Of a stretch of DNA of 38,330 nt, positions 12,493-38,200 are shown one piece after another. The position numbers were made by a program, and so were the translations under genes. The notes under the pieces were generated by a model. The model did no database searches. It was not told the origin of the DNA and was given only the letters and a program-made list of their open reading frames with translations. Each line of letters starts with the position of its first letter. Position 1 is the first letter of the stretch. This DNA comes from a virus, in IMG/VR virus record IMGVR_UViG_3300032524_000092, positions 1 through 38,330 of that record; one strand, 5' to 3'.

Positions 12493-14261
12493 TACTTCTG
12501 TGTTAATACGGCCGTTAACAATCCTAAGATTGAATATGTTTGTTCATCTGAGGTTTTAACACCACAGTTGAGCTTTGAGTTTTGACTCATTAAACAACGA
12601 CGGACTTTTGATTTGTCTCCTGGCCCTTTATAGCCATCAAGTAATCGTAAGCCTGCTCGTACGTGAACACAGTCTTGTGTTGGAAAACTACCGAACTTCT
12701 TATTAGCTTTATCGGCCGTTTTCTTTTCTTCTTCTGACATATCTTCATCAACAATGTCAACCATATCCCATGTTTCTGGATCTAGCCATTGGTCTCTCAT
12801 GTCAAACATTTGTCCAAGTTTATGTGTGTGGGTTTTTGTTTCCCCGTCTGCTGTAGCTGGCATAATTCTGCCGCTAATAGTTCTATGATAATGTCCTGAG
12901 ACATAATCGGTATCACCGTTTTTTGCTTCATTTAGATATGTAACGTGGCGATGTTTTACACTATCTTTTTTGTTTTGATAGCCTGTTACATGTGCTTCGA
13001 TCATATCATAGTAATATTTAGGGATAGGTAGATCCTTTACAAATGTGTGGCTGTGTGATTTTTCGCTGCCATCAGCAATTGCATCAGTGATTCTATTATC
13101 GACTATTCTGTGAGAATGATTCATAGTATAATCAGCCCAACCATTTCCAACTTCATTTATTGAAGCAACATGTGCATGGGCAACTTTACCTTTGTCTCCG
13201 ACCTTATTAGTTAATTTGCGGCCTGCTGGTTGAGCTTTAAGTTCCTCATCAAGGGCATCAACTAGCCAGTCAAATATTTTCATGTCATCATCAGTAAGTT
13301 CTAATGCTTCAATCTCTTCATCAGAAAGTACACCATCATTTACACCATCATTTACACCATCACTTACAGCATCAGATTCAGCTGCAAGGTCTTCAAGTGT
13401 TACTGTGGTTTTTGGGGTACTCTTATCAATTAGTACTAAGCCGCCTCTATTTGCATAGTCTTCAATGCTTCCTTCAACTTGTTCCCATATTGCTTTATTA
13501 ACAATTGAGTCTTCATTAGGAGAATCTTTGAATCTTTCAATAAGTGCAAGGTCTGGAATAACGACTTCATTATCAAATACAAATATTCCATTATGTGTTT
13601 CATCTTTAGGTGCTTGACTGAAGTCTGGTTGTTCAGAATCTGCAAACTCCCAATTAGTTACGCCAGCATAGTGTGTGTCACTTTGATCAGCCGGTGTATT
13701 TACGAATGAAACTTCTTTAGCTTTGGTACGTCCAATTTTCCAGTAGGTTAATTTCTTTTCACTGCTTTCTTCATCTTCAATGATTTTACCACGAGGGTGT
13801 CCGCAGAAACCATCTGATAGTATGTTGGCACCACAGTGTGTGCACTCTACAAAATCGATTGGAACAACACGAGTTGATACTGTAAGGTATCTTCCATCAA
13901 TGATTTTTTGTTTAGCTTCTTCATCAAATATTCTAGTTTCAAGTTGTGTAAATCCACCACGCGGGTCATCTAAGAAATGATTAGCAGATACTCTACCAAT
14001 AGGATCCATAGCTCCGCCTTCTTCCATGTCACTCATTCTGTGATGAGTTAGTACTGGGCGTTTAAATGGATTTGTCCAGGTATGGTAAGATTCTTTCATT
14101 GAATCTGATGTGTAAAAGAAAAAGTTACCATTCACAAATCCAGAGTGCGTTGCATCAAGGATAGCAACAAGTGACCTACCTGGTATGTTTTGATCAGCAG
14201 ATAATATACCATCTTTTGGATCTAATTTTATGCTGTCTATTAAATATGGATTTTTACTCAT
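12492..14261 (-). CDS. Prohead maturation protease with C-terminal His-rich repeats
   Basis: The 589-residue protein presumably cleaves scaffold and capsid precursors during head maturation. Residues 1-200 look like a phage prohead serine protease: RPVLTHHRM places the candidate catalytic His at 73 or 74, GRYLTVSTRV places the candidate Ser at 129, and EVSFVNTPAD (183-192) is a typical closing strand. C140, C143, C153 and H155 form a zinc-knuckle-like insertion. An Asp/Gly/Val tetrapeptide repeat (about 301-312) leads to two His-rich repeats (360-408 and 435-481). The end (FGSFPTQDCVHVRAGLRLLD, then GYKGPGDKSKVRRCL) is a motif I know from phage head proteins. I chose the ATG at 14261 because ATGAGG, 15 bases upstream, supplies its ribosome site. 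It overlaps the previous gene by 8 bases. Confidence 0.75.
   Translation of the reverse strand: MSKNPYLIDSIKLDPKDGILSADQNIPGRSLVAILDATHSGFVNGNFFFYTSDSMKESYHTWTNPFKRPVLTHHRMSDMEEGGAMDPIGRVSANHFLDDPRGGFTQLETRIFDEEAKQKIIDGRYLTVSTRVVPIDFVECTHCGANILSDGFCGHPRGKIIEDEESSEKKLTYWKIGRTKAKEVSFVNTPADQSDTHYAGVTNWEFADSEQPDFSQAPKDETHNGIFVFDNEVVIPDLALIERFKDSPNEDSIVNKAIWEQVEGSIEDYANRGGLVLIDKSTPKTTVTLEDLAAESDAVSDGVNDGVNDGVLSDEEIEALELTDDDMKIFDWLVDALDEELKAQPAGRKLTNKVGDKGKVAHAHVASINEVGNGWADYTMNHSHRIVDNRITDAIADGSEKSHSHTFVKDLPIPKYYYDMIEAHVTGYQNKKDSVKHRHVTYLNEAKNGDTDYVSGHYHRTISGRIMPATADGETKTHTHKLGQMFDMRDQWLDPETWDMVDIVDEDMSEEEKKTADKANKKFGSFPTQDCVHVRAGLRLLDGYKGPGDKSKVRRCLMSQNSKLNCGVKTSDEQTYSILGLLTAVLTQK
12819..13184 (-). 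repeat. Two His-rich repeats inside the prohead protease gene
   Basis: Protein repeats at residues 360-408 and 435-481 share the pattern HxHV, INE or LNE, NG, DY, HxHR, RI, ADG and HSH or HTH, giving three HxH-type pairs each. The copies are diverged at DNA level, so the duplication is old. Clustered HxH pairs suggest metal binding. Confidence 0.7.
13330..13365 (-). repeat. Triplicate 12-bp in-frame repeat (Asp-Gly-Val-Asn) in the protease linker
   Basis: Three nearly identical 12-base units (TACACCATCATT on the plus strand; the last unit has one change) encode an acidic tetrapeptide repeat between the protease domain and the His-rich repeats. Slippage could change the copy number without breaking the frame. 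Confidence 0.75.
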
Positions 14262-14610
14262 TGTCTTTATCCTCATATATTATATGCTTGCTAGTTTCAA
14301 TTGAACGACAACGAGAACATTTAATTTCTAGTATCGTTCCTGGTACTATACGAGCAAGTAATTTATTGCAGACTACTTCTTTTCCCCATTTGGCAGATCG
14401 CTTGGCATCAATAGCCATGCATCTAAAATCAACCGGTTCAGACATAATTACATTACCGCGATAATTTATAACGCTGCAGTTATGTCTGTGGCACTTAATT
14501 TCAAAAGCCCATGGAGCGTCGTTATTTTCTTTATAACGACAGATTAACCCATTGCAGTGTGGAGGGCAACGGTATTCGATGTAGTCAGTAGTTTGGTTTT
14601 TATCACTCAT
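14254..14610 (-). CDS. Small Com-like zinc-finger protein
   Basis: The 118-residue protein carries two cysteine clusters. The first is CPPHC near 15-19, with C24 and then CHRHNC at 40-45. The second ends in GTILEIKCSRCRSIE, closely resembling the LEIKCPRC end of phage Mu Com-type zinc fingers, though the usual CxxC on the opposite side is reduced to one Cys (EVVCNKLLAR). Com proteins regulate translation by binding mRNA. Here the gene sits between portal and protease, so a packaging, head or regulatory role is open. Weak Shine-Dalgarno; it starts 7 bases after the portal stop. The zinc call is likely, the function unknown. Confidence 0.55.
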   Translation of the reverse strand: MSDKNQTTDYIEYRCPPHCNGLICRYKENNDAPWAFEIKCHRHNCSVINYRGNVIMSEPVDFRCMAIDAKRSAKWGKEVVCNKLLARIVPGTILEIKCSRCRSIETSKHIIYEDKDNE

Positions 14611-16379: not shown

Positions 16380-18137
16380 TTAGATATCCAAACCTGCCTC
16401 TTGTAGGGCTTCAATAACGTTTGCTAGTTCTGATGAATCTAGTCCCTTTGAACATTCGCCCATCTTTGAGCGATAAACTGCATCACGTGCCGTTGCTGGA
16501 TCTGCTCCTAGTCTATTAATCATAAATTTTTCTATCTCATCATCTGATGGTTGTAAAATTATACTAAGCGCGTCTGCGCCTGTAGCTTCCAATTCACTGA
16601 GGTTAGTATTTTCTTTTCCCCCTGTGGATGGGTCAAGTATATTATCCAATATTCCTTCAAAATCTTCATATTCTACTGTGCCGTCGTCTAGGTTAGGATT
16701 TTCGTTATCAACATCGTCATCATCTGTGCCTCTTACAGCTCCGTCAACAGCTCCGTCAACAGCTCCGTCATCTACTGTGATGATGTCTTCAGGAACAATA
16801 GCTGTCCCGTCGCTTTTAGTTATGTCATCATCTGTCTGATATTGAGAAAGTATGTCTTGACATAATTCCATATTTGATGTAGCAGCAATCAATGAATCAA
16901 GTAGGTGTATTAGCTTCTGAAAGTTTATTTGAGTACTGATATTTTTGTTAAGACCGCTTATGTCATCAGAAAAGAATGCTCTCATTCTTCCTAGTGATTG
17001 AAATGTTACACCAGCCAACCAACCTAGTATTCCTTTTCTACTAAATAGCCAAGCTAATAATCCTTTTACTAGATCATAAAATGGCATGCAATTAACAATT
17101 CTATTTTTGTTTAGTAGTCCAAAAGCAAATGAATAAATTTTACTTTTAGTTTGTCTATATATTACATTTAATGTAGCAGCTGTTGATACCAGTATACTAT
17201 CAATAAGTATTTTATAAATATTAAAACTCATAAATTTAAGTGAGAATCCACTTGTGCTTAGGGTGAATGTTGCAATTACTCTAGCATATATAATGAACTG
17301 TCTAAGATTCTGTAATTGGTCTTGGATTTTCTCAGAGGGTGTTAAGCGAGATGCAACCTCATTGATTCCGTCTGCGTATATGTTTTCTCCAGCATTACTT
17401 ATTGCTGCCATCTGTCGTAAAAGACAACATGCTATATCGATATGGTCCTTTCCTAAGATTGTATCTACAGACGATTCTAACATATCAAGTGCGGGCTCTA
17501 CATAATTTAAAGACGCATCTATGGCTGAGTTAAGAAAATTATCATTTCTAACTGGTTCAAATCTTGCAACTGATGTTCCAGCAGGTACAAGTAGATCTTC
17601 GCCTGGTGGAATATCTACTGCCAACTGTGTGTAATAGTCTCTTATAAAAGAGCTTGAAACTTTTTGTGTAAGTCCTAATTTTAAGACTCGTGGATCTTTA
17701 TAATTACGATCATTATATTCAATATACCGTGTTGATAAACTTATATTTGTTCCTTCTGAAATGAATCCAATTCTATTGCGGTCTTCCTCTACCACCCATT
17801 CTTCTACTGCATCATAGCTTGATGTAGAAATATGTATATACATGTCACCTGGTTTTAGTGGACGTTCAAGTTTAAATGAATATTCGCTTATAGCTGGTGC
17901 CCAGTTTTCACTCATATTTACATAGTCCATTAGACCTTGAGCTGAGTCTACTTGGTTTTCAAGAAACTTATTTAATCCTTTTACAAATTCTGATTGTGAT
18001 ACATCAAATTCAGTTTCCTCATTAAGTGGGCCATGTGCAGAATGCGCATCAGCTCTAGCTTCTGGTGTGGCTGCTGATATAAAAGAATTCAGTGACTGAA
18101 GAAGTCTATCTTTTACTGATGGTGTATTATTACTCAT
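16380..18137 (-). CDS. Uncharacterised protein between terminase and portal
   Basis: I do not recognise this 585-residue protein. Residues 1-80 are helical and acidic. Residues 80-200 look beta-rich (EYSFKLERPLKPGDMYIHIS, then IPPGEDLLVPAGT). Residues 290-385 hold amphipathic or hydrophobic helices, including ILIDSILVSTAATLNVIY and LLAWLFSRKGILGWLAG, which might touch a membrane or pack in a bundle. An acidic stretch with a DGAV triplicate (457-468) follows, and the last 70 residues form a small helical domain. It is coupled to terminase by TAATG and to portal with one spare base. A virion or packaging-accessory role follows only from position. Confidence 0.5.
   Translation of the reverse strand: MSNNTPSVKDRLLQSLNSFISAATPEARADAHSAHGPLNEETEFDVSQSEFVKGLNKFLENQVDSAQGLMDYVNMSENWAPAISEYSFKLERPLKPGDMYIHISTSSYDAVEEWVVEEDRNRIGFISEGTNISLSTRYIEYNDRNYKDPRVLKLGLTQKVSSSFIRDYYTQLAVDIPPGEDLLVPAGTSVARFEPVRNDNFLNSAIDASLNYVEPALDMLESSVDTILGKDHIDIACCLLRQMAAISNAGENIYADGINEVASRLTPSEKIQDQLQNLRQFIIYARVIATFTLSTSGFSLKFMSFNIYKILIDSILVSTAATLNVIYRQTKSKIYSFAFGLLNKNRIVNCMPFYDLVKGLLAWLFSRKGILGWLAGVTFQSLGRMRAFFSDDISGLNKNISTQINFQKLIHLLDSLIAATSNMELCQDILSQYQTDDDITKSDGTAIVPEDIITVDDGAVDGAVDGAVRGTDDDDVDNENPNLDDGTVEYEDFEGILDNILDPSTGGKENTNLSELEATGADALSIILQPSDDEIEKFMINRLGADPATARDAVYRSKMGECSKGLDSSELANVIEALQEAGLDI
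16735..16770 (-). repeat. Triplicate 12-bp in-frame repeat (Asp-Gly-Ala-Val)
   Basis: Three identical units of ACAGCTCCGTCA (plus strand) encode DGAV repeated three times within an acidic linker. It resembles in design, but not in sequence, the repeats at 13330 and 27639. Confidence 0.8.
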
Positions 18138-21100
18138 TAGATATCTCTATTGCGTGGAGTGTGTGTTACATTTCTAGAAATTCTTACTGAACCACCATTT
18201 GAGCTTCCGCCTATGAACGGTACTGGATCATCTTCCTCAGGCGGTTCACCTTGTTTTGGGTACAACCCGTGGTCTCTTACAGTTATTCCATTTATAGATG
18301 TAACTGTTGGTAGTTGTATTGATGGCTTACTTGGGGATAATGCTCTAGCATGCCCATGGGCTGAAAGTATAGGAGACTTAATTACTTCTGCTTCGATACT
18401 ATAATCCCATGCTAAGAATTTATCATGATTTATTAAGAACGCATGATTAGCTAACATCCACCCATCTAATGTATGATCATTGCCGGTTGAAAATACTTCG
18501 CCTTTATCTGTTGTACGTAAAACACTGTAATCGCGCATCTGACCAATAAGTCTATTCTGTTCTAGTTCAACTGTGACGTGTCTTTCATTGCCGGTAGAAT
18601 CTGTTACTGTCTCAACTGCTGGGAAAACACAAATACCGTTCTCTAACATTTTGACTGAGTTTCGAACAACTAGATTCTTAGTACGTACTTTAGTAGATTC
18701 ATTTGTTGTTACATCTATTACCTCGGTTGTGCCGCCGAAATCAACTACGGCCATTTTATTTAGCATATGTTTTAAACCTGCACAGTTTTTACCTGTTGCT
18801 GATACACCCCTTTGTAGAGCAAGACGTAGAAGTTCCCAGTTAGTGTGTCCATGTCCCCTATCAAAGCACGCATAGTCAATTGGGAACTTACCGAATAGTC
18901 CTAATATAAAATCAACTCCTGCAGTATTTGTATAATCTTCTGCGCTAATATTATAGGTAGCAACTAGGCGAAAGAAGTTTGCTCTTGTAACTGGCGGTGC
19001 ATCTCCGGGTACGCCATCATTATACGGCTGTAATACCATAGGTGATTTTACATGTTCTTGTATTACAATTCGTACACCTGCGGCAGCCTCATTCCAGTCA
19101 ACCCCCATTGTTACATAACTATTTTTAAATATCTCAACCTCTGAATAACCATACACATACAGTGATGGTTCAATATATTTATTACGGAATACGCCCTCTG
19201 TTGCTTCACCAAATTCTGCACAATTATATGTTAACATTCCATTTGCTAATACATAACTATGATCCTTAGATGAAACAGTTATGTTATATGTATCTTTAAG
19301 GCCGGTGTTTTCTTTACCTATAATGTCCGCATAAACACCACGTTCGTTAAATGAAGTCTTAACAAAATCTGGGTACGATTCAATCTCATTTCTTCCATAT
19401 AGTCTATTAGGAATAATACCATTAGATGCTTTTTCTGCAATCTTTTTTGTTATACCGTATAAGTGTGTAAGTTCTGTATAACTATGAGTACGTTTTAATT
19501 TAGCAATATTTAGGAATCTATTGCGTTTTTCATTTAATAGACGTTTATACTTCTCTGCATATAGATATAGTGCAAGGGCATGTTTATCTTTTCTTTCACA
19601 TAGGTTGTATCCAATTAATTTATAGAATGATGAGGAAAAATCCACCCAAGACCCGTTTCCGCGAATATATACAGTATAGCATATTTTTCCGTTGGGCTGA
19701 ATGTAATCCGATACACAACTTTCAAACCCAATCTCGGTAATTAATTTATTTATTTGTTTATAATAACTAGCACCATCAGGTACCTTGCTTTTGGTAAAAC
19801 TTAGTACTAATGATCTGTCATGTGCGTCTGCGCCAATTGTGTTACCATCTGTACTTAGTAGGGCACTTATAAAGGAAGATTTAACTTCTTGTTCTCCAAG
19901 CCTTATAAAATCTGGAATATTAACTTGCTGAAGTGTACGATTACCAGTGGCACAACCAAACTCAATTAATTGTTTTGGTAAATAACCGTAATAACGTAAC
20001 TGATAAAATCCAGGTTCTTTCTCATTTAAGTTACCAGAAGTTATATTTGGTAATAGTTTTGTAATTATTGACTTTAGCCTAATCAAATCGTTTTCACTTT
20101 CAGAGTAAAAAGCTACGGATTCTCCATTGGTAGGAAGTGTTCCATCACCATAAAGAAACCCAACTATAGCTCCCCACAACACGTCGTTGGGTTTTCCAGC
20201 AAGCCTATTAATTGGCTGGATGTTTATTTCTTTTGCATTAATAGCTTTTTCTTTCCCATTACGAGTATTGAAACTATGATCTGTAGATGCTTCTACACTA
20301 TTAATATCAGTCATTATGCGAATACACGGTTTCTGGCCGGTAAATTTGTGATTAGTTGCCGTGATGGGAGTAATATCACTATATAGGATAGAACCAATCT
20401 TTAAATTCTCTATGTTTATTTTTCCAATATCAGATAGAATTGGTGTATTACCAACTAAACAATATTCTCTAGTGTATCTTATAGAGTCAGTTGTAGCTCG
20501 TACAAGTGATTCATGTTCAGGTGTCCACTCTGGGGACTCACTTGATGGGATATGAAATTCACGGAAGTTGAATTCTTGTTTGTTCTTATTTGTACTTACA
20601 TTGTAGAAAAACTCATGCCTGCCGGTTGGGGTAGAACTTAAAATAACATTTGTACTTTTGGTTGTTGTTGCAATAGGCCATATAGCTTCAAGTAATATAC
20701 TCTCTGGAATATAATCACACTCATCTATGATTAAATCATTAGCAGAATTGTGCACAAGAAGACCGCCATTAGATATTCCATTTACTTTGAATGGGCTAAG
20801 TGATTCATCTGGGGGAAATAATGCAACATAATTGTGGTTACCTTCTATGGTAATATCATATGTTTGCTTAGTTTGATTAGTGTCTTTTACTTCATTAACC
20901 CTGCAGTATTGCTTTCGTAGCTTTTGCCTACGTGATCCATCGAGCGTGCTAATTTCAACATCAATACCTAGAGATGTAATAAAATGTGCACTGGATTGAT
21001 GGAGTTTCCATGATCTTAAATCTCCAACTTCAATTTCTTCGCCTTTATCGGTGAATACTTTATGGTTAGATGTGGCTTGTAAGAATCTTCCAGATCTTGT

Positions 21101-21721
21101 AGATACTTCATAGATTGGTTTGAACCCATTATCGTGAACAGCTGTAACAGATTTTGGTTCTGGTCTGTCTAATTCATAATTCCATGAAACAACTTTTTCT
21201 TCTGGCTTAATTTCTTCAATTGGTTTCCACGATAGATCAGCCATCCATATTTGTGTACCTGCTGGTAAACATTTACCACGAACAGAGTTATTTCCTACAT
21301 TACCTGTAATTACAGATCCATTTAGGAGTTCTACTTTATGTGGTTTTCTAGTTACCCTGGAGATTGAGTTTTTAATCTTATGAGAATCAAAACATAGATG
21401 ATCTATGTTATTAAAGATTTCATCAAGCTGACCTTCGTACGCTGTAACAATAAGAATTTGACGATTATGATAAGTGAAAGCTTTGTACACGGCTTCTATT
21501 GCTAGTACTACAGTTTTCCCTGTTCGACGGCCCATGCGTAGAATTTTACGAAAGTGTCTATCTTTTAATATGTTTCTCTGATACTTACGTAAACGTAATG
21601 GCTTTAGTGGGTCCATCGGATCCTGAAGGAATGCTTCAGCAAACAGCCACGGACTCATTAGAATCTTGGCTTCTTGTAATTCTTCCTCTGTTAGTGGTGG
21701 TAGTGTGCTTAGGTCTGACAT
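18137..21721 (-). CDS. terL: Terminase large subunit interrupted by two inteins
   Basis: The 1194-residue precursor reduces to a 606-residue terminase if both inteins splice, a normal size for large myophages. Extein landmarks are Walker A GRRTGKT (64-70), Walker B LIIDECD (330-336), LSSTPTGR (361-368, coupling motif), and an RNase-H-like nuclease with GVDWNEA (D875), ACFDRGHG (D954) and GNDHTLDGW (D1082/D1086). Intein 1 occupies residues 151-325 and intein 2 residues 421-833. The protein drives ATP-powered packaging and cuts concatemeric DNA at the portal. Both insertions lie at conserved sites, so the unspliced chain should be inactive. The gene overlaps the end of the preceding Hint-like gene by 13 bases and is coupled to the next by TAATG. 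The ribosome site is weak (AAGAG). Confidence 0.92.
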   Translation of the reverse strand: MSDLSTLPPLTEEELQEAKILMSPWLFAEAFLQDPMDPLKPLRLRKYQRNILKDRHFRKILRMGRRTGKTVVLAIEAVYKAFTYHNRQILIVTAYEGQLDEIFNNIDHLCFDSHKIKNSISRVTRKPHKVELLNGSVITGNVGNNSVRGKCLPAGTQIWMADLSWKPIEEIKPEEKVVSWNYELDRPEPKSVTAVHDNGFKPIYEVSTRSGRFLQATSNHKVFTDKGEEIEVGDLRSWKLHQSSAHFITSLGIDVEISTLDGSRRQKLRKQYCRVNEVKDTNQTKQTYDITIEGNHNYVALFPPDESLSPFKVNGISNGGLLVHNSANDLIIDECDYIPESILLEAIWPIATTTKSTNVILSSTPTGRHEFFYNVSTNKNKQEFNFREFHIPSSESPEWTPEHESLVRATTDSIRYTREYCLVGNTPILSDIGKINIENLKIGSILYSDITPITATNHKFTGQKPCIRIMTDINSVEASTDHSFNTRNGKEKAINAKEINIQPINRLAGKPNDVLWGAIVGFLYGDGTLPTNGESVAFYSESENDLIRLKSIITKLLPNITSGNLNEKEPGFYQLRYYGYLPKQLIEFGCATGNRTLQQVNIPDFIRLGEQEVKSSFISALLSTDGNTIGADAHDRSLVLSFTKSKVPDGASYYKQINKLITEIGFESCVSDYIQPNGKICYTVYIRGNGSWVDFSSSFYKLIGYNLCERKDKHALALYLYAEKYKRLLNEKRNRFLNIAKLKRTHSYTELTHLYGITKKIAEKASNGIIPNRLYGRNEIESYPDFVKTSFNERGVYADIIGKENTGLKDTYNITVSSKDHSYVLANGMLTYNCAEFGEATEGVFRNKYIEPSLYVYGYSEVEIFKNSYVTMGVDWNEAAAGVRIVIQEHVKSPMVLQPYNDGVPGDAPPVTRANFFRLVATYNISAEDYTNTAGVDFILGLFGKFPIDYACFDRGHGHTNWELLRLALQRGVSATGKNCAGLKHMLNKMAVVDFGGTTEVIDVTTNESTKVRTKNLVVRNSVKMLENGICVFPAVETVTDSTGNERHVTVELEQNRLIGQMRDYSVLRTTDKGEVFSTGNDHTLDGWMLANHAFLINHDKFLAWDYSIEAEVIKSPILSAHGHARALSPSKPSIQLPTVTSINGITVRDHGLYPKQGEPPEEDDPVPFIGGSSNGGSVRISRNVTHTPRNRDI
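19223..20461 (-). mobile_element. Intein 2 with LAGLIDADG (DOD) homing endonuclease, in terminase
   Basis: Residues 421-833 (413 aa) start at CLVGNTPIL (Cys1, block A) and carry block B VEASTDHSF. They contain both endonuclease motifs: WGAIVGFLYGDGTL (516-529) and FISALLSTDGN (617-627). They end DTYNITVSSKDHSYVLANG (block F) and MLTYN, with Cys834 as +1 nucleophile. The residue before the terminal Asn is Tyr, where His is usual. It is inserted between RYTREY and CAEFGE, just before the nuclease domain. Both DOD motifs keep their acidic residue, so the endonuclease may still be active and mobile. Confidence 0.9.
20747..21271 (-). mobile_element. Intein 1 (mini-intein without endonuclease) in terminase
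   Basis: Residues 151-325 (175 aa) begin CLPAGTQIWMADLSWKPIEE (Cys1, block A), carry block B GRFLQATSNHKVF and block F TYDITIEGNHNYVA. They end GGLLVHN, with Ser326 as +1 residue, a canonical His-Asn/Ser junction. There is no room for a LAGLIDADG domain. About 18 extra residues separate block F from block G. It splits SVRGK from SANDLIIDECD, six residues before the Walker B aspartate, so splicing is needed for ATPase function. Confidence 0.92.
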
Positions 21722-22518
21722 ATAAAACTCTTATCTACAAAGTTCCCAAATTGGGAACTTACCTTTACTATTTCTTGTGGTACTAATTCTTTATAGTAAC
21801 GACCTATGATATCATTACATAGGGGGTTAGGATCCTTTAAGATAGTTTTGGCACTTCGTGTTGGTCTGACACGGAATATTTTTTTGTTCTTATCATTAGT
21901 ACCCACCATAACTCTAGTTGATCCTTTTGCTGTACATCGTATACGTTTAGTTCTGTCGAATAAATGAAATAATAATCGTTGATCGTCAAAGTTGATTGTG
22001 GAAATATCCATGCCCTTATACAACTTACGTGCAAAACGACTTCGTATTTCATACATTAATGATTCTAATGTTGATTCATCCAACTGACAAAAGTAATTAG
22101 ATATTTGTACATAGTGTGGGTATTGTTTTAAGGATGCACTAAGGGAATTTGAAATAACATTTACCCAAGTTTGGTCTTCGGATTTTGTACCATATACTGG
22201 TAAATAATTTACTGAGCGTATATCTATCTTTAAATGTCCAGTGTATTTTTTATTGGGTGGGTGGGAGAAGTTTTCCCACTTATTGGATGGAGATAAGAAC
22301 TTAGTATTATCTGTACATGTTATTTCACGACCGCTTTTACTAATAACTTTCCACAGTGACAGATCTTTATCACATTCAGTAACTGTGATATTTTGTTCTC
22401 GGAACCCGGTTATAAACCAACCAATTCCTTTTACTGTAGAATTAACAACACTGCCTATTGGCAGTACTGAGCCATTAGATAATACTATCGGATGGTTTGC
22501 TCCGAGGTATAGAGCCAC
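21709..22518 (-). CDS. Stand-alone intein-like (Hint-type) protein, splicing residues missing
   Basis: This 269-residue protein reads like an intein with almost no exteins. Its start, YLGANHPIVLSNGSVLPIGS, aligns with block A of intein 2 (CLVGNTPIL) but has Tyr4 in place of Cys1. ISKSGREITCTDNTKFLSP (about 60-78) matches block B with Asn-Thr in place of the His region. The last residues, IVKVSSQFGNFVDKSFICQT, parallel the blocks F/G of intein 2, with Gln-Thr at the Asn/+1 position. The middle shows no LAGLIDADG or HNH motif. A GTG start has a good Shine-Dalgarno (AAGGGAATAGTTGTG), and the end overlaps terL by 13 bases. It may be a degenerate intein kept as a gene, or a Hint fold with a new role. 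The resemblance is by eye. Confidence 0.6.
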   Translation of the reverse strand: MALYLGANHPIVLSNGSVLPIGSVVNSTVKGIGWFITGFREQNITVTECDKDLSLWKVISKSGREITCTDNTKFLSPSNKWENFSHPPNKKYTGHLKIDIRSVNYLPVYGTKSEDQTWVNVISNSLSASLKQYPHYVQISNYFCQLDESTLESLMYEIRSRFARKLYKGMDISTINFDDQRLLFHLFDRTKRIRCTAKGSTRVMVGTNDKNKKIFRVRPTRSAKTILKDPNPLCNDIIGRYYKELVPQEIVKVSSQFGNFVDKSFICQT

Positions 22519-22520: not shown

Positions 22521-22688
22521 CTATTCCCTTCTGTGGCTACGATTACGTAAATTTCTTTGTTCTGCCTTACCAACAAAATGGCGGCGTTCGAATATTTCAG
22601 TAAGAAGCCCGGACTTTATTACTTTCTTACGAAAGCGACGTAGGGCTACTTCTATTGATTCATCTGGTTTTAATATAACTTCAATCAT
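22521..22688 (-). CDS. rpsU: Ribosomal protein bS21 homologue
   Basis: A 55-residue frame runs from ATG at 22688 to TAG. It carries the bS21 signature: VALRRFRKKVIKSGLLTEIF (residues 14-33), then ERRHFVGKAEQRNLR and a basic end RSHRRE. Bacterial bS21 proteins are about 60-70 residues and share VALRRFKR...EKAG.L.E...R..., so this is a slightly shortened version. bS21 sits near the anti-Shine-Dalgarno end of 16S rRNA and affects initiation. Phage copies are known and are thought to replace the host protein and favour phage messages. It starts 8 bases after the previous stop with a modest AGAGAT ribosome site, and is followed after 2 bases by the Hint-like gene. The basic, conserved, full-length frame makes chance very unlikely. 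Confidence 0.92.
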   Translation of the reverse strand: MIEVILKPDESIEVALRRFRKKVIKSGLLTEIFERRHFVGKAEQRNLRNRSHRRE

Positions 22689-22696: not shown

Positions 22697-23761
22697 CTAT
22701 GCGTGGTACATTTTTGCTTCATTGCCTAAGAAGCGATTGGATGGATTTACTTTAGCACCATAGATTGCAGAAACGGCTCTCTGGCGCTCAGTTGCTGATT
22801 CGGCCGTCATGAATATGCTTTGCATTTGGGCCGGTGTTATATCGCGTGAGTTAACACTGCGTAATATTTCAAGTGCTGATATGGCTAAGTTTGATACTCC
22901 GCGTACTGAAGCATTTGTTGCCATACCCCCTATAAGTGTTCCGAGTTCGAAATATGCTAACATACTTCCTACCCTAAATACACCACGTGTTGCTGCAACT
23001 CCAATGTTGTGCATTGTGCGTCCTTTTTTATATACGCCAAGTGAAAAACCGAGAGGTTTTACTGATGGATCTAGTCTAGGTACAATAGCTCTAGTGGTTG
23101 TTGCTCCAATACTTTCTAATTTTACAGCAGAACTAACAGCTGGATTTTTTAATGCCTCTGCAGTGACTTCTCCAGCTCCTGCAAAGTGTCTAAGATGTCT
23201 AGACATAGTTCGTGATGGTCCTCTATTTGCGTCCATTACGGCAGATAGTTTACCGATTCCAGTTTCACCTAGATTACTTGTTGCGACATAGTCTGTTAGT
23301 TCATGAACTACCTTATTTGGATTAATTAGACCAGCCAGCCCAACAGTACGTGCGTGACGAAATGCTGTGGCTACGTTACCTTGTCCTATGCCGCCAAATA
23401 AATCATTTAATGTTCTAGCTCCGCCTTGTATTGTTGATAGAACTAAGTTACCTGCAGTTAGGTTTCTGGTCCATCCCCCGGGCCCTACTCCAGAGATTAA
23501 AGTTTTATATCCAAAAAAACCCATGCCGCTAAGAGACGCTCTGCCTTTAGTGGCTTGAAGACTTTGGAATGGATTTGTAATAAATAATGTTGATGCTGAT
23601 GACATGGGATTGCCGAGTGAAATATCAACAAATGATGTGGCTGGATTAAATCCGACAGCTTCATTAGTAGCTGCGCCAGCAGCGAATATTGCAGCAGGTC
23701 CTAAAATCTCTTTATTAGCAGATGTTACTTTTTGAATTGTTGCTGAATTAATTGACGGCAT
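22697..23761 (-). CDS. Ala/Gly-rich probable virion or membrane-active protein
   Basis: I do not recognise this 354-residue protein. It is basic and rich in Ala, Gly, Ser and Asn, with long mildly hydrophobic stretches such as AAIFAAGAATNEAVGF (23-38), ELGTLIGGMATNASVRG (about 273-289) and ISGVGPGGWTRNLTAGNLVL. The composition resembles internal virion proteins that are ejected with DNA or that insert in membranes. The neighbour from 24455 has the same style, so the two may act together. Starts coupled 1 base after that gene and ends 8 bases before the bS21 gene. Confidence 0.45.
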   Translation of the reverse strand: MPSINSATIQKVTSANKEILGPAAIFAAGAATNEAVGFNPATSFVDISLGNPMSSASTLFITNPFQSLQATKGRASLSGMGFFGYKTLISGVGPGGWTRNLTAGNLVLSTIQGGARTLNDLFGGIGQGNVATAFRHARTVGLAGLINPNKVVHELTDYVATSNLGETGIGKLSAVMDANRGPSRTMSRHLRHFAGAGEVTAEALKNPAVSSAVKLESIGATTTRAIVPRLDPSVKPLGFSLGVYKKGRTMHNIGVAATRGVFRVGSMLAYFELGTLIGGMATNASVRGVSNLAISALEILRSVNSRDITPAQMQSIFMTAESATERQRAVSAIYGAKVNPSNRFLGNEAKMYHA

Positions 23762-24457: not shown

Positions 24458-25237
24458 TTATTTATTATCTGGACTTATATCCTCAAAATCAGCGTCTTCA
24501 ATCTTCTCTTTTGCTATAGCTTCTTCCATGCGTCTTCTTATGTCTGCCGCCTTCTTGGACTCGTCCTCTGGGTTTGTGATCTTGAATCTGAGGCGTCCTT
24601 CACGGGTAGCGACGAGCTCTTTCCTGAGTCGCTCTTTTTTCTTGAGAGCTTTTTCCTTGGTGATGAGCGCCGGAGCAAAGTCATCTTGATATATAGGTAC
24701 TCCTGTTTGTTGGTCTATGGCTACAGTGCGAGGTACTATGTCATTTGTTATGGCTAAGTACTTTTGAGCTCTATGTTCTTGTATTATGCTATCAACATAT
24801 TCTTGAATCATATTAAGCTCAATATAGCTCTCTGGATCAACCTTTAGATCTTTTATTAGTTGTGGCACCATGCGAATTACTAAATCAACTTCTTCCGGAC
24901 ACGGATGATCCTTTGGAGCAATTTTTAGTTTATGATATAGGCATATATCTGCAAAATCACAATCTTCTTCTTGGCAGTTAAGAGGAACAGTATTAGCCAT
25001 TCCAAATACACGATCCTGATTGAACCTTACTAGTTGTAGTATTTGTGATTGTGTGAGTACCAGATTATCACGTAATTCTTCTGGATACGAATCCAGCAAT
25101 GATTGAATTGCGGGTATCTCTTTTACATAATCAATTAGTTTGATTTCTAAGTCTGGATTAGCTTTGAGTTTTTGCTCCGCTAATGCAAGTGCTGCTATTT
25201 CAGATGCTGCATTACTTGGTGGTTTAGTGTCAGACAT
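24458..25237 (-). CDS. Cysteine-cluster protein of the packaging region (possible small terminase)
   Basis: The 259-residue soluble protein is acidic and mostly helical. Residues 88-113 hold four cysteines (CQEEDC, DIC and HPC, i.e. C88, C93, C99, C113), a likely metal site. A C-terminal charged helix (KEKALKKKERLRKELVATRE) resembles a coiled coil. A region like this, lying upstream of terL in the same operon, would fit a small terminase subunit or another DNA-packaging accessory. It does not sit next to terL, however, and I see no clear helix-turn-helix. Starts one base after the GT4 stop without a strong Shine-Dalgarno. Confidence 0.45.
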   Translation of the reverse strand: MSDTKPPSNAASEIAALALAEQKLKANPDLEIKLIDYVKEIPAIQSLLDSYPEELRDNLVLTQSQILQLVRFNQDRVFGMANTVPLNCQEEDCDFADICLYHKLKIAPKDHPCPEEVDLVIRMVPQLIKDLKVDPESYIELNMIQEYVDSIIQEHRAQKYLAITNDIVPRTVAIDQQTGVPIYQDDFAPALITKEKALKKKERLRKELVATREGRLRFKITNPEDESKKAADIRRRMEEAIAKEKIEDADFEDISPDNK

Positions 25238-25238
25238 T

Positions 25239-26639
25239 TTATGTTAGTTTTATTTCATTAATTAGATTAAGCCAGTTCTGACGAAACGCATTCCATGAGT
25301 ACTTTGTAGCTAAGTTGCGGCCTTTGATTGCTACATCGATACGCTCTTTTTTAGACATATTATATAATGTTTTTAAAACCTCTACTGCGTGGTTAACGTC
25401 TGGGTAGGCGCGACCTAGATTAGTCATTGGTTCTTGTCTTATAACAATAGGGTCAATAAGAAATAGGCCGTCTCTGCCCCACGATTGAGCTGCAGAATAA
25501 TCAAGTGATGTTGTTGGTACTCCGGCTGCCATGCTTTCGAGAACAGGTAAATCCCATCCCTCTGCGGCAGACATGTGGAAATGTATATCTGCCATATTAT
25601 ATACATCATTTAATTCATTATCATCTGGACCAATACCTGGACGTATTAGGGGGTTAACTTTAAACCAATCATAGGCATCATACTGTCGTAGGAGTTCATC
25701 CATATTCCATCCGTTGTCATGATACGGTGAGTGGAATAGGAACCTTATAGGTCGGTTTGGATCTTCATATCCAGCATCTTTAAATTTACGAATTGCTTCA
25801 AATAAGAATGGAATATTCTTACGTTGAATATTACGACCAACATATAGTATATTGAAATCATTTTTAGTTGATGGAGATGAGTCCCAAAGTACTCCTCCTC
25901 TACTACGCCCAACAGAAAGGAATTTACGATCATGAGAACGTAGTTCATTCTTACGTTCATAGTTTATATTTTTAAATATAGATAGATTTACTCCAAAGGG
26001 TATCACCTTAGTAACACATTCACTATCTACCATTTCATTAATTACATCTTTAGCCCAGTCACAGTATGCGATAGGAATATCAGTTTTTTCATATAGCTCT
26101 TGCCAATCAAGATAATGTCCGCCTAATTGTGTAAAGCGCGGTAGAGGCTCTCCGTCAACTGCAGCGTACATTATATGAATATAAGAATCACGCATTTGAC
26201 TTTCCTGTGCCGGCTGACACATCCATTGGTCACCAATGCTTATTACAATATCTGGATCAAACGTTGCGGTGGCAAGATTAATTGAATTCTGTCCGTATTT
26301 ATCTTGTTCTATACGTGCGCCCTTTCCACAGTATACTCCATCTTCATCTTTTGATATAGGTTTATGTTCTTTATCTAATCCAATATATCTAATTCTTCCA
26401 TCTTGGTATAATTCTGATATCATAGTTCCACGGTTACAGCACCTGGTGTGATCTTTATAGGTTGTATATGTTATCCACGGTCTACGTAGAAGAGGCTTGG
26501 AGCTATGAAACCAAGCTAACTGTGCAACAATGTGACCATCACTATGTAGGGTTTCTAGTATTTTAGTAGCAACCCTGGCGTAGCCGGTTTTAGAATTCGT
26601 AGAGTCTGATGTAACAAGTATCTTGTACTTTTTATTCAC
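25239..26639 (-). CDS. Glycosyltransferase family 4 (GT-B)
   Basis: The 466-residue enzyme should transfer a sugar from a nucleotide donor to an acceptor glycan. Its C-terminal half has the GT4 pattern: ILYVGRNIQRKN (264-275, phosphate-binding Arg/Lys), the EX7E motif EGWDLPVLE (E360, E368), and the turn AAGVPTTSLDYSA. The N-terminal half (1-200) starts KILVTSDSTNSKTGYARVA, as a GT-B acceptor domain does. The start is a GTG at 26639 with a strong AGGAG six bases upstream. It lies outside the main sugar cluster, in the packaging end of the operon, together with a 74-residue gene whose stop it overlaps. Substrate unknown. Confidence 0.85.
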   Translation of the reverse strand: MNKKYKILVTSDSTNSKTGYARVATKILETLHSDGHIVAQLAWFHSSKPLLRRPWITYTTYKDHTRCCNRGTMISELYQDGRIRYIGLDKEHKPISKDEDGVYCGKGARIEQDKYGQNSINLATATFDPDIVISIGDQWMCQPAQESQMRDSYIHIMYAAVDGEPLPRFTQLGGHYLDWQELYEKTDIPIAYCDWAKDVINEMVDSECVTKVIPFGVNLSIFKNINYERKNELRSHDRKFLSVGRSRGGVLWDSSPSTKNDFNILYVGRNIQRKNIPFLFEAIRKFKDAGYEDPNRPIRFLFHSPYHDNGWNMDELLRQYDAYDWFKVNPLIRPGIGPDDNELNDVYNMADIHFHMSAAEGWDLPVLESMAAGVPTTSLDYSAAQSWGRDGLFLIDPIVIRQEPMTNLGRAYPDVNHAVEVLKTLYNMSKKERIDVAIKGRNLATKYSWNAFRQNWLNLINEIKLT

Positions 26640-26856
26640 TGTGTTTCTCCTGAAGGATATCTAATAGTTCTGGGTGTTTGTGTACCATTAATTTAACTAT
26701 GGAAGTAAGGTATACACATCCATTGTTTCTAAATTTGGACATTAGTTTAAACGATCTATACTCTCTTGTTAGCATAATTTTATCTGGAACGGTTCCTGAA
26801 TCCATCTGTACAAGTAAAGAGTCTTGAATTTGTTCTGCTATTTTTGTGCTAATCAT
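26632..26856 (-). CDS. Small uncharacterised protein
   Basis: The 74-residue product is soluble and helical, with an early LTREYRSFKLMSKFRNNGCVY stretch broken by one Cys. It overlaps the membrane-protein gene at its start by 8 bases and the GTG-started glycosyltransferase at its end by 8. There is no Shine-Dalgarno, so translation is probably coupled. The overlaps on both sides are the main support that it is real. No family recognised. Confidence 0.45.
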   Translation of the reverse strand: MISTKIAEQIQDSLLVQMDSGTVPDKIMLTREYRSFKLMSKFRNNGCVYLTSIVKLMVHKHPELLDILQEKHSE

Positions 26857-28378
26857 TTAGTGCCGCATGTAGTAAAGAGTCTTCGTTTGATGGAATAAGT
26901 GTGGAACCAGGAAGACGATATGCATCTGCAATTTTATCTGATATTCCTCCTTGGTAGGACATATGATCTAGACCAAAAAGCTCAAATGTTGCTGATACTG
27001 ATCCTAGGGCAACAATTCTACGTTCATAGAAAACAGCTCTTCTTACCATGTCAAGTAATCCAGTAGTTCGTTGGTCTGATAAATTCTCAAAATAACATTT
27101 TAGTGTGGGAGCTTGGGCACTCAACTTAGACTTCAGTGTTTGTTCTATGGTGCTGTCTTGTAGGTTGAAATATATACCATTTGATTGCTTACTGAGATTT
27201 TTAATTGCTGGACTTAAAATACCAAACCACTCTGCTCTTGTAAGTGATTCTACTTCTGCCAGTTTAGTATAGTAATCCACTAACCACTCAGCATATGGTG
27301 GGTTATCACCTAGAACTATTGATGCGTTACTGGTGTTAGTGTGTGACACTGACCTTACACTTGGTATTAGTGAGCACAAATCCTCTATGTGTCGGTTATC
27401 ATCTGATATGTCTACAATTACATTTTTCATCTTCATGAGTGGGGCCAATTTATATACAGCATCTTGTGGTTTTCCTGTTATAAAAACCCTTACTGCCAAA
27501 GGATAAGAAGTTGTTTTTGCTATGTACGTTACAGGTTTGGTATCCTCTACAACTTCCATAAGCTCTTCGTGGTCTTCCGGCCACATTTTGTTATAGTCTT
27601 TAGTTGATTCATTAAGTTCCCTGATAATATCCTCTGTGTCTTCCGGGGTATCTTCCGGGGCATCTTCCGGGGTACGTTTCTTTCGTTTACGTCTGGTAGT
27701 TGGAGTCTGTCCTCCTTGTACTGCAGCCATGAGAAGGAATATAGCAGCAGGATCTATAATAAATGCTATTAGCAATGTTATTATACGGGCAGTTCCATCC
27801 TGACTTAGTCCTAGCATAATTCCAATATGTTTAAATGGACCAATTTTAAGATCTGCTGTAATCTCTTCAACGGTAGTATTATTTTTGGAAGCATACAAAC
27901 TATCGATTATTGTATTTAGCTCAGACATTCGTGGAGCAGATTCTTTATATGCGTTCTCTCGTCGTATGATATAGTTATCTGGCATTAAATCTATTCGTGT
28001 CTGAATATCTGTAAGTTCTTTTTCATAACGAACAATTTGTTTATCCAGTAGGGTAGACTTATTTTCTACTATAGTCTTAACTGCACTATCTTGTGCATAG
28101 GCTTCCATCCAAAATCCGTAATGCCCCCATAGTGCTATAACCATAAGGCCTATCATAATAATGAATAGAGGAACTTTAAGTGCTTTCTTTTCCCCTACGA
28201 TTAGCCATCCAGCAATGGTAAGTTTTGTTATTTCTAATACTATAAAGGAAATTACAGTTGTGTTGAACGCACCTTTATACAGTGCGGTCATGCCGCTTAT
28301 TGTTAGCCACGCACTTACTATTGCTAGGGCGAATGCGACTAATATTATTAGCCTGCTATCTTTAAGATTAAAATGCAA
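26849..28378 (-). CDS. Membrane protein with coiled coil and cytoplasmic C-terminal domain
   Basis: The 509-residue protein has four likely transmembrane helices (about 9-30, 40-62, 69-90 and 197-220). Between the third and fourth lies a charged coiled coil (about 100-165, e.g. LLDKQIVRYEKELTDIQTRI). After the last helix come a basic stop-transfer stretch TRRKRKKR (228-235), a PEDA/PEDT/PEDT repeat (237-248) and a 240-residue soluble domain that I do not recognise. The start is TTG at 28378, chosen because GGAG stands 9 bases ahead and no ATG upstream is in frame. A host-membrane role during late infection is plausible; function unknown. Confidence 0.6.
   Translation of the reverse strand: MHFNLKDSRLIILVAFALAIVSAWLTISGMTALYKGAFNTTVISFIVLEITKLTIAGWLIVGEKKALKVPLFIIMIGLMVIALWGHYGFWMEAYAQDSAVKTIVENKSTLLDKQIVRYEKELTDIQTRIDLMPDNYIIRRENAYKESAPRMSELNTIIDSLYASKNNTTVEEITADLKIGPFKHIGIMLGLSQDGTARIITLLIAFIIDPAAIFLLMAAVQGGQTPTTRRKRKKRTPEDAPEDTPEDTEDIIRELNESTKDYNKMWPEDHEELMEVVEDTKPVTYIAKTTSYPLAVRVFITGKPQDAVYKLAPLMKMKNVIVDISDDNRHIEDLCSLIPSVRSVSHTNTSNASIVLGDNPPYAEWLVDYYTKLAEVESLTRAEWFGILSPAIKNLSKQSNGIYFNLQDSTIEQTLKSKLSAQAPTLKCYFENLSDQRTTGLLDMVRRAVFYERRIVALGSVSATFELFGLDHMSYQGGISDKIADAYRLPGSTLIPSNEDSLLHAALND
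27639..27674 (-). repeat. Triplicate 12-bp in-frame repeat (Pro-Glu-Asp-Ala/Thr)
   Basis: Three units of TCTTCCGGGGTA (plus strand, with CA for TA in the middle copy) code for a PEDA/PEDT repeat in the membrane-protein linker. It is GC-richer than the surroundings. Confidence 0.75.
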
Positions 28379-28381
28379 AGA

Positions 28382-28645
28382 TTATTTCTCCGTAAATTCG
28401 GCTGCTAGCTCTTCCATTTCTTGCCCTTCATAAACTTCCGGAAAAGTATGATGTACAAAAACGAGGCTTATAATTTGTCTGTCACGATCACTATAAAAAT
28501 CTATCAGTTTTGCATCACGTGGTAGATTCTTAATGTATCCCGGGTGTGTAAGAATTTGTGGAAATGCTTCATAGGAAATACGTAGTTTTATACACCTACG
28601 AGGAGGAGAAGATGTAATATTTTTATCTCCAGTATATAGTGTCAT
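28382..28645 (-). CDS. Small uncharacterised protein
   Basis: An 87-residue soluble protein without known motifs. It carries a basic, Pro-rich start (SSPPRRCIKLRISYEAFPQI) and an acidic end (EGQEMEELAAEFTEK). It begins by TAATG overlap with the gmd stop and ends 3 bases before the TTG start of the membrane-protein gene. The coupled context supports its reality. Nothing suggests a function. Confidence 0.45.
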   Translation of the reverse strand: MTLYTGDKNITSSPPRRCIKLRISYEAFPQILTHPGYIKNLPRDAKLIDFYSDRDRQIISLVFVHHTFPEVYEGQEMEELAAEFTEK

Positions 28646-29628
28646 TATTTACTCAGTCTTTCTATGTCTTCCCGTACCATGTTGTAGACTAGTCGTTCAA
28701 ATGATGTATCTGGTTCCCAGCCTAGAATGTCTTTAGCTTTTGATGAATCACCACATAGGTAGTTTACTTCTGCCGGTCTCATGAACCTTGGATCTTGTTT
28801 AACGTATTTTCCCCAATCTGATATGTGAATGCAATTGAATGCTGCATCTAGAAATTCTCTTATTGAATATGCTTCTCCTGTTGCTATTACAAAGTCTTGT
28901 GGTTCGTCCTGCTGTAACATTAGGTGCATAGCTTTTACATAATCAAGCGCATATCCCCAATCTCTTTTTGCATCAAGATTACCTAGAGTTATGTGGTCTT
29001 CTTTTCCTAGCATAATCTTTGCTACACCGTCAGTAATTTTGCGTGTAACAAATTCTATTCCTCGTCTAGGAGATTCATGATTGAATAATATCCCGGAACA
29101 AGCAAACATATTATAACTCTCACGATAGTTTGTAGTGATCCAGTGTGCATATAACTTTGCGATTCCGTATGGGGATCTTGGATAAAACATTGTATCTTCA
29201 TTAGCTTTAGTGACAGTTTGTTTGCCAAACATTTCAGATGATGATGCTTGATAAAATTTAATTCCACCCTCAAGGGCTTCATGCCAGTAAGACTCACGTA
29301 TGGCTTCTAACATTCGTAGAACCCCAAGTCCTGTTACATCCCCAGTATACTCAGGTGAATTCCAACTCTCCTTGACAAACGATTGGGATGCTAGATTATA
29401 TACCTCATGAGGTTCAGATTGTGATATAGCCCTGGCAAGTGAATTTTGATCAGTCAGATCACCACTAAGCCAGTTAATGTCATCCTCTATGTGAGCTACG
29501 TTTCCACGATTCTTAGAAGAGCTTCTACGCTCTAGTCCAAATACAGTGTATCCTAATTCCAATAGATGGTCTGCCAAGTATGACCCATCTTGTCCTGTGA
29601 TTCCAGTAATTAGTGCTCGTTTATCCAT
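28645..29628 (-). CDS. gmd: GDP-mannose 4,6-dehydratase
   Basis: The 327-residue enzyme converts GDP-mannose to GDP-4-keto-6-deoxymannose, the entry point to GDP-fucose, GDP-rhamnose and GDP-perosamine. Seen directly are the Rossmann NADP site ALITGITGQDGSYLADHL (5-22), GDLTD (56-60), ASSSEMFG with the catalytic Ser/Glu (128-135), the Tyr/Lys pair SPYGIAKLYA (Y154, K158), and the family signatures LFNHESPRRGIEFVTRKIT (181-199) and LGNLDAKRDWGYALDYV. Length is a little below the 370 of the E. coli enzyme. Start and stop are coupled to both neighbours (TAATG) and the ribosome site is GAGGAG. It is the best-defined sugar gene in the window. Confidence 0.95.
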   Translation of the reverse strand: MDKRALITGITGQDGSYLADHLLELGYTVFGLERRSSSKNRGNVAHIEDDINWLSGDLTDQNSLARAISQSEPHEVYNLASQSFVKESWNSPEYTGDVTGLGVLRMLEAIRESYWHEALEGGIKFYQASSSEMFGKQTVTKANEDTMFYPRSPYGIAKLYAHWITTNYRESYNMFACSGILFNHESPRRGIEFVTRKITDGVAKIMLGKEDHITLGNLDAKRDWGYALDYVKAMHLMLQQDEPQDFVIATGEAYSIREFLDAAFNCIHISDWGKYVKQDPRFMRPAEVNYLCGDSSKAKDILGWEPDTSFERLVYNMVREDIERLSK

Positions 29629-30686
29629 TATCTTAACTCCTCTAGGAATATTTTTATTTGTTCAAATTCACTATCATAGTCCACAACTTCTTTGAATTTC
29701 ATATAACAGTTATGGCACATATCTGCATATTGATCGTCGTCAACATCAGTTATTTTCTTTAGTCTATCAATTATTGGTCCACCGTTATCTAACTCAAGGT
29801 ATGTTTCGCCTTCAACTAATAAGTCTCCAGCTAGTTTACCCTTGTAATCACGTCCGAATGTTATAACAGGCCGTCCCATAGCAAAAGCGTTGTGGATCAT
29901 GTGTCCGAAGCCGTCACCTCCTGGTTTTACGTGCCATATGAATCCAGAAGCATTTATCGCGTCAGCTATGTCGGTAGCTTTGCATATACTGTTATCTACC
30001 ATACCTGCTCCAAACATTTTGATTGTCCAGTCTGGTAGTTGTCGTCTAACTACATCAAGTAGGTTTGCATTCCTCATGTAATGAATAAAGCTAGATATAG
30101 AGTGTGGTGTTTCTGATGGGCCGTTGTATTTATACGTATCCAGATCAAATTCCTGGTGATAAAATACTGCATTCTTACCGGCAGGTAAACCGGACTGTGG
30201 AAGTGCACAGGATGCCATGATATTATTAACGTTCTGATTCATTGACCAACTGTTGCCAATTTGAAATATATGCTTGGCTTTTGGTTGATACAATTCAATC
30301 AACTTATTGAACGGTTCAATATGAGAAGGAATTGATGACAAAATTATATCAAACTCAGTCTCTTTGAACTTATCTAAAGTTATACCTCTATTGATCTTAC
30401 CTTTAGTAGGATCTGTTACATAATATATACCATCTTCTGTGGTGTAGTTTTTATTAAGCCAGGTACGTTCATCTAATGGATTACCATGTAGATCTACAGG
30501 TACAGTCTCAATATTGGTATCTAAGAATTGTTTGGCTGTATCTATGTGTGGGTATACATGCCAGTACCCTTCATGGTACCAGTCTAATCCTATTGGTCTG
30601 TACAGTTCCCATCCGAGGCGTTTCTCAAATAGAAGCTGTAGTGAATAGTATAAATCCCCGTGGTGTAGGTCTGCTAGTACTCTCAT
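29628..30686 (-). CDS. Glycosyltransferase-like protein (GT-B type)
   Basis: The 352-residue protein looks like a GT-B glycosyltransferase. The C-terminal half holds a nucleotide-sugar-site-like segment HVKPGGDGFGHMIHNAFAMG (about 257-276) followed by RPVITFGRDYKG and an acidic LVEGETYLELDNGG, similar in layout to EX7E families. The N-terminal half begins MRVLADLHHGDLYYSLQLLF. I used the ATG at 30686 because GGAGAAAATAATG couples it to the previous stop; the longer TTG-initiated version has no such site. It ends in a TAATG overlap with gmd. Donor and acceptor unknown. Confidence 0.6.
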   Translation of the reverse strand: MRVLADLHHGDLYYSLQLLFEKRLGWELYRPIGLDWYHEGYWHVYPHIDTAKQFLDTNIETVPVDLHGNPLDERTWLNKNYTTEDGIYYVTDPTKGKINRGITLDKFKETEFDIILSSIPSHIEPFNKLIELYQPKAKHIFQIGNSWSMNQNVNNIMASCALPQSGLPAGKNAVFYHQEFDLDTYKYNGPSETPHSISSFIHYMRNANLLDVVRRQLPDWTIKMFGAGMVDNSICKATDIADAINASGFIWHVKPGGDGFGHMIHNAFAMGRPVITFGRDYKGKLAGDLLVEGETYLELDNGGPIIDRLKKITDVDDDQYADMCHNCYMKFKEVVDYDSEFEQIKIFLEELR

Positions 30687-36534: not shown

Positions 36535-36548
36535 AATATATCCTATTA

Positions 36549-37949: not shown

Positions 37950-37957
37950 AACTACCT

Positions 37958-38197
37958 CTAGTATTGTTTGTGTTTTGGTTCTGTTAGCTTGGTATTTTTT
38001 CCTGATATAGCGTCTTTGAACAGCTCGTTTATCTCATCCATTAGATCATTACGTTGTCTGTTAACTGCGCTTACAGTATCTGCGGCGCTAAGACGTTCTT
38101 CGTCTGTAAGTGATAGGTCTCTGCGTGTGTCTTCAAGATGCCATAGACGTACGTTTGAAATAGTTAATTTATCTACTAAACTTCCTAGTGTTTCCAT
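37958..38197 (-). CDS. Small DUF4254-like protein of the glycan module
   Basis: The 79-residue helical protein opens METLGSLVDKLTISNVRLWH (1-20) and continues with NRQRNDLMDEI. This resembles short phage DUF4254-type proteins, which tend to lie beside glycosyltransferases. No catalytic motif is visible. AAGGATAATCAATG gives a good start, 3 bases after the stop of the partial gene upstream. The family call comes from memory of the pattern. Confidence 0.55.
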   Translation of the reverse strand: METLGSLVDKLTISNVRLWHLEDTRRDLSLTDEERLSAADTVSAVNRQRNDLMDEINELFKDAISGKNTKLTEPKHKQY

Positions 38198-38200
38198 TGA

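Follow-up and report, generated by a model that had tools for sequence, protein, structure and literature searches.

Why would a phage keep an intein-like protein as a gene of its own, directly upstream of the terminase gene terL? Inteins are usually viewed as selfish elements with two fates, splicing or decay. The initial annotation of this locus left two answers, a relic or a factor acting in trans on splicing. To choose between these and other possibilities, we examined the fold and anatomy of the protein, its distribution and mode of selection, and its association with the inteins of TerL.

The window, by which we mean the whole stretch of DNA analysed, is a virus contig of 38,330 bases and represents a genome fragment. 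The S21, Hint and terL genes are co-directional in it, and the Hint gene also runs in the same direction as the packaging and capsid genes. The genes of this part of the locus are as follows.

18137..21721, minus strand: terL, carrying two inteins; its ATG falls within the 3' end of the Hint gene
21709..22518, minus strand: free-standing Hint/LAGLIDADG-derived gene of 269 aa, with a GTG start at 22518 and its stop at 21709
22526..22532, minus strand: ribosome-binding site of the Hint gene (AGAAGGG), 7 nt 5' of the GTG and within the end of the S21 gene
22521..22688, minus strand: ribosomal protein S21 homolog of 55 aa (PF01165, E=1.8e-10), directly upstream of the Hint gene
22697..23761, minus strand: conserved 354-aa gene, the locus marker, with the C-terminal motif TERQRA..AIY.AKV.PS.R..GNE
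24458..25237, minus strand: 259-aa gene conserved across nearly every related locus; its product has a C-x5-C-x4-C pattern

Elsewhere in the window, a 118-aa protein encoded just 3' of the portal gene (14254-14610) weakly resembles a translational regulator family (phrog_6417, E=3.5e-4). A long run of sugar genes adjoins the structural genes (25239-38330), including glycosyltransferases, a GDP-mannose 4,6-dehydratase (E=1.6e-127), and aminotransferase-like and methyltransferase-like genes.

Searched singly, the window protein gave a weak TIGR01445 match against intein models (E=0.036, below the cut-off), no match in Pfam or PHROGs, no tblastn match in phages and no relatives among viral contigs. 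Relatives were reached via its neighbours, by a TerL search and by the motif of the 354-aa gene. A profile built from six homologs retrieved nine of all PDB sequences at E<=10, and all nine are inteins. The best matches (E=2.2e-4) are variants of the Ssp DnaB mini-intein, and both halves of the VMA inteins 7qst and 7qsu align, including block F and some of the LAGLIDADG region. In an HMM-HMM comparison, the Hint family scored 46 against the TerL site-1 inteins, while the maximum among 100 column-shuffled controls was 24 and the reversed control gave 13. AlphaFold models reached a pLDDT of 79 for the window protein and 73 for the L006 member. Full-length VMA inteins are the top Foldseek match for both models (7qsu, with E=5.6e-5 and 5e-7, respectively), and for each model the 50 best PDB matches are without exception inteins or related Hint, BIL or hedgehog domains; the non-Hint fold that the initial annotation had named as a refutation did not appear. 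Matches among viral proteins were mostly homing endonucleases and intein-bearing proteins. The Hint horseshoe with blocks A/B and F/G, which marks the Hint-fold superfamily, is present. There is hardly any doubt, then, that the window gene encodes an intein-derived Hint protein. Profiles, AlphaFold and Foldseek thus bear out the initial annotation of a stand-alone, degenerate intein-like gene adjoining terL, and the GTG and AGAAGGG provide the start of its own that had been attributed to it.

The protein is a whole intein without exteins, its Hint fold interrupted by a reduced LAGLIDADG region. The open reading frame starts about three codons ahead of intein position 1, and the window protein ends one residue after the terminal-Asn position; across members, the frame ends within about 10 residues of that position (0-3 in most). 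Since the limits of the reading frame coincide with those of the intein, the gene corresponds to a single intein without exteins and does not lie in frame between two of them. Its regions, all encoded on the minus strand, are the following.

22444..22509, minus strand: block A region, residues 4-25; position 1 is Tyr4, and no aligned member has Cys or Ser there
22270..22356, minus strand: block B region, residues 55-83, with 'SGREITCTDNT'; Gly-Arg is retained, Arg64 is invariant and the His position is Thr72
21940..22206, minus strand: reduced LAGLIDADG region, residues 105-193; helices 116-132, 148-163 and 177-189 are retained
21712..21828, minus strand: block F/G region, residues 231-269; it ends in FICQT and overlaps the terL start region

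The order of blocks A, B and F/G is that of the initial annotation, which had overlooked the degenerate LAGLIDADG part at about residues 105-193. Residues 164-170 and 194-222 are modelled with low confidence.

What has been lost is specific. An alignment of 15 sequences shows I/V/T/K/L/E/R/Y at position 1, T/V/I/S/G where block B would have its His and Q/K/R/L/P in place of the terminal Asn, whereas Gly16, Arg64, Gly110, Leu146 and Leu151 are invariant. These patterns indicate that structural residues have been retained and catalytic ones have not. The window protein has Tyr4 at the Cys1 position and Gln268 followed by Thr269 at its end, exactly as had been read from its sequence. The catalytic set of an intein (Cys, Ser or Ala at position 1, a block-B His, and a terminal Asn or Gln with a +1 nucleophile) is not maintained. 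Neither are the two helices ending in a catalytic acidic residue that characterize LAGLIDADG endonucleases: the helices are partly retained, the acidic residues and most saddle strands are gone, and the first repeat is shortened. Autoprocessing of the hedgehog or BIL type does not fit either, as position 1 lacks Cys and a partner domain is absent. We found no added C-terminal domain and no HTH or other DNA-binding domain in the Hint protein. All members but one have a pI >9, in contrast to the TerL site-1 inteins, the majority of which are neutral or acidic.

The C terminus calls for caution, since it is also the start of terL. In the window, the last 13 nt of the Hint gene contain that start, which lies at the same Hint C-terminal codon, in another frame, in 16/16 lineages; it is an ATG, except for a GTG in L066 and L050, and several lineages have a ribosome-binding site of the GGGAG or GGTAG type just 5' of it. 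Because of this overlap, the penultimate-His position is always Cys or Trp (TGY/TGG), and the IGSF[LI]CQ ending is partly a constraint at the nucleotide level rather than a protein motif, given the terL start and its ribosome-binding site. The C-terminal likeness to a TerL intein noted in the initial annotation is therefore present but partly forced. Nor is the Cys or Trp conserved at the C terminus a new active site, a reading that we considered and rejected: it arises from the TG of the terL start codon, translated in the Hint frame. Evidence for the Hint fold from the N-terminal and middle parts is independent of this overlap. More generally, an overlapping start codon can mimic block-G similarity.

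To determine how the gene has been inherited, we retrieved 48 loci by the C-terminal motif of the 354-aa gene. Combined with the TerL searches, these gave 16 distinct carrier lineages, and the gene always lies just upstream of terL, so that its presence beside terL in related phages, for which the initial annotation had suggested looking, is borne out. The Hint gene as query returned the same loci and one further contig. We found no Hint gene in GTDB genomes or GenBank phages, and none ahead of terL in the outgroup phages for which the upstream flank is available. Eight larger records contain a single copy per genome where one was found, the other matches being TerL inteins alone; the divergent L063 copy, missed in this eight-record search, was detected in the locus survey. 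In the TerL tree, all 17 rows with the Hint gene fall in one clade (support 100/99), and the Hint tree reproduces the main groups of the TerL tree. One TerL clade, a matching Hint tree and a constant locus together argue for a single origin followed by vertical inheritance, with no mobility; the sporadic distribution or mobility typical of LAGLIDADG elements is not seen. As for the source, several intein groups lie at about the same distance from the protein, and the adjacent TerL intein is one candidate among them.

The gene also behaves as one under selection. In four pairs of close to moderate distance, dN/dS indicates purifying selection, at 0.14 (L064/L065), 0.22 (L085/L070), 0.27 (L053/L061) and 0.36 (L064/L085), wider pairs being excluded because their synonymous sites are near saturation. 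Calculated separately for the N-terminal, middle and C-terminal thirds, it ranges from 0.06 to 0.44, below 0.45 in each. Among the closest pairs, the rate of evolution of the Hint gene is about three times that of terL. The reading frame is unbroken in 15/16 lineages; we take the break in L002 as a sequence error because that contig has several frameshifts, terL included. Judged from these sequence comparisons, the Hint gene is very probably selected but splicing-dead.

Some members differ in their surroundings. In L016 and L019, no S21 gene lies between the 354-aa gene homolog and the Hint gene, which overlaps or directly abuts that homolog; S21 and Hint are therefore not an obligate pair. 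L006 (5480-5773) and L007 (5411-5740) have an additional small gene (97-109 aa) between the 354-aa homolog and S21. The L003 member (5910-6013) has no ATG, GTG or TTG ahead of block A, and its translation must begin at a rare start codon (CTG or ATC/ATT), unless it is expressed by another route. Synthesis as an S21-Hint fusion by -1 frameshifting was ruled out, as the relative frame of the two genes differs between the window and L003.

TerL itself carries inteins in these phages. The initial annotation had recognized two of them in the window terminase, and both were recovered (PF14890, E=3e-13; TIGR01443 and TIGR01445 above the cut-off).

20747..21271, minus strand: TerL intein 1, a mini-intein without endonuclease, 175 aa, TerL residues 151-325 (VRGK^C...LVHN^S)
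19223..20461, minus strand: TerL intein 2, of LAGLIDADG type, 413 aa, TerL residues 421-833, not common to other carriers

All carriers with a readable terL have an endonuclease-free mini-intein of 161-176 aa at the first of these sites ([V/I]RG[K/Q]^C...HN^S), and that of L002 is detectable across frames. TerL inteins at other sites are sporadic, namely, intein 2 of the window and the Walker-A inteins of L002 and L016. The latter two (L002 1427-4161; L016 4240-7086) hold an additional intein within Walker A (GRR^C...HN^TGK) besides the site-1 mini-intein. Outside the clade, L089 (6904-10323, a mini-intein) and L029 (3949-6996, LAGLIDADG type) have TerL inteins at the same RG^C site as the carriers and no Hint gene. 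It follows that splicing at this site does not in general need the Hint gene and, as the carriers form one clade, the association of the gene with the mini-intein counts once.

The fold, descent and selection of the Hint gene are well supported; its molecular role is inferred. Because it has been kept as an ordinary gene despite the loss of its splicing and DNA-cutting residues, it probably has a new job. On balance, we favour domestication of an intein as the explanation of the whole. The ancestor would have been a Hint plus LAGLIDADG intein that lost its exteins along with its splicing and cutting residues, and the dead intein would have persisted as a free-standing protein, encoded in the late/packaging operon of a single clade of large environmental phages. 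The Hint protein would now be a putative non-catalytic, mostly basic binding protein, sharing one mRNA with TerL and translated together with it; TerL or DNA are the candidate partners. Tentatively, and ahead of the other candidate roles, it may serve as an accessory of TerL or of DNA packaging. The basic charge is a weak pointer to a binding role. Against such an accessory stand the models, which lack most of the LAGLIDADG beta-saddle and make sequence-specific DNA binding of the homing type unlikely, and the faster evolution relative to terL.

Other roles for a retained protein fit parts of the same evidence. A regulator of its own operon, binding nucleic acid at the S21-Hint-terL mRNA or its promoter by analogy with WhiA, would agree with the basic charge of most members, the retained LAGLIDADG-derived helices and the overlap of the gene with the ribosome-binding site and start of terL; yet as the saddle strands have disappeared together with the two acidic residues of LAGLIDADG, and neither an HTH nor another DNA-binding domain was found, we regard it as unlikely. 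Unlikely to about the same degree is a dead Hint that regulates the TerL mini-intein in trans, by binding the precursor or an intein half and delaying, promoting or chaperoning splicing. All 16 of the 16 carrier lineages have the endonuclease-free mini-intein at one TerL site, neither it nor the Hint gene was ever lost in the clade although inteins elsewhere in TerL are gained and lost, and the two share a fold, the Hint protein being presumably translated together with TerL. Both, however, have a single origin within one clade, the free Hint is not specially near the site-1 intein in sequence, and L029 and L089 dispense with the gene. A trans-acting factor that governs splicing in this way is not known to us. 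The trans action proposed in the initial annotation is thus compatible with the fixed mini-intein in all carriers, set against these two gene-free loci. Its most specific form, in which the free Hint would bind the TerL precursor and set the time of mini-intein splicing, thereby timing DNA packaging, is more doubtful still; if true, it would be the first dedicated trans regulator of protein splicing known to us. The constant pairing of the Hint gene with a fixed TerL mini-intein makes trans-control of splicing a directly testable question. Another role in the virion ranks after trans regulation and before decay.

Decay, the other option of the initial annotation, would make the gene a relic whose frame is held merely by translational coupling to terL. 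The loss of all catalytic residues, the fast evolution and the position of the terL start and ribosome-binding site inside the 3' end would suit a relic, and a dead, nearly extein-less intein has been published, Arthrobacter Arth_1007 (PMC3196547). But purifying selection extends over every third of the gene and not its 3' end alone, a short reading frame would suffice for coupling, and the one broken copy comes from a contig with terL frameshifts as well; conservation in 16 lineages under purifying selection disfavours a relic, which we consider improbable. More improbable still is a substitute for a missing small terminase subunit (TerS) directly 5' of terL, the reading we initially preferred. 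The gene occupies the typical TerS place and overlaps terL, PHROGs name no TerS in the window, and PF03592 and PF11053 were not found in eight related records; the Hint protein itself, though, matches no TerS family in Pfam or PHROGs. PF05119 (P27-type TerS) instead matches the 259-aa gene homolog of 4/8 records, with E values of 5e-5 to 3e-4, below the cut-off, and that gene is conserved alike in carriers and non-carriers. From its sequence, the 259-aa gene is probably the unannotated P27-type TerS of this phage group, which contradicts a TerS role for the Hint protein. Residual activity, either as a free-standing homing endonuclease or as a Hint protein that processes itself by means of unusual catalytic residues, is the least credible reading. 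Inteins with a terminal Gln exist, and residue 268 of the window protein is Gln; HO and WHO, moreover, are free-standing, non-splicing intein relatives that cut DNA (PMC7282813). But the LAGLIDADG acidic residues are gone and the first repeat is shortened, the terminal position varies among Q/K/R/L/P, there is neither a Cys/Ser nucleophile nor a block-B His, and inheritance is vertical, without spread.

The initial annotation knew of no described case in this position, and we found no report of a free-standing intein-like gene beside terL in the open-licence literature, although it may have been described elsewhere. Several known systems share parts of it, yeast HO/WHO and an Arthrobacter pseudo-intein coming nearest. 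Like yeast HO and WHO, the phage Hint protein is a free-standing intein relative without exteins or splicing that combines Hint and LAGLIDADG parts, and HO, too, is domesticated (PMC7282813). HO and WHO, however, have an active endonuclease and a C-terminal zinc finger (PMC7282813), whereas in the phage Hint both splicing and cutting appear dead, the LAGLIDADG part is shortened and the zinc finger is absent; the phage gene also differs in holding a fixed place next to terL in phages. The Arsp-FB24 Arth_1007 'DnaB' intein is likewise nearly extein-less, of phage origin and devoid of catalytic residues, including the block-B His, and its authors presented it as the first case of a decayed intein that has been retained (PMC3196547). 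Yet it is a single decayed copy, shown to be a pseudogene (PMC3196547), while the phage Hint is a conserved family under purifying selection. WhiA reuses a homing-endonuclease domain, as a non-cutting fold within a transcription regulator, but is a known transcription factor with an HTH and without a Hint domain (PMC3781837, PMC11701221). TliVMA and PhoVMA (PDB 7qsu and 7qst) are the nearest solved structures across the entire length of the Hint protein, and differ in lying inside an ATPase with exteins and in having a full LAGLIDADG domain. As for the neighbourhood, phage bS21 loci also place an S21 gene near packaging and capsid genes (terL/portal/capsid), but with bS21 on the opposite strand and, by text search, no mention of an intein (PMC9723584). 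The phage Hint family is unlike HO/WHO, Arth_1007 and WhiA in that both activities appear dead while the Hint domain is present and the gene is conserved. If our interpretation is correct, this would be a clear case of an intein exapted to serve as a protein, kept across a divergent phage clade with both activities gone, and intein research would gain a family in which the Hint fold itself, and not splicing, is the object of selection.
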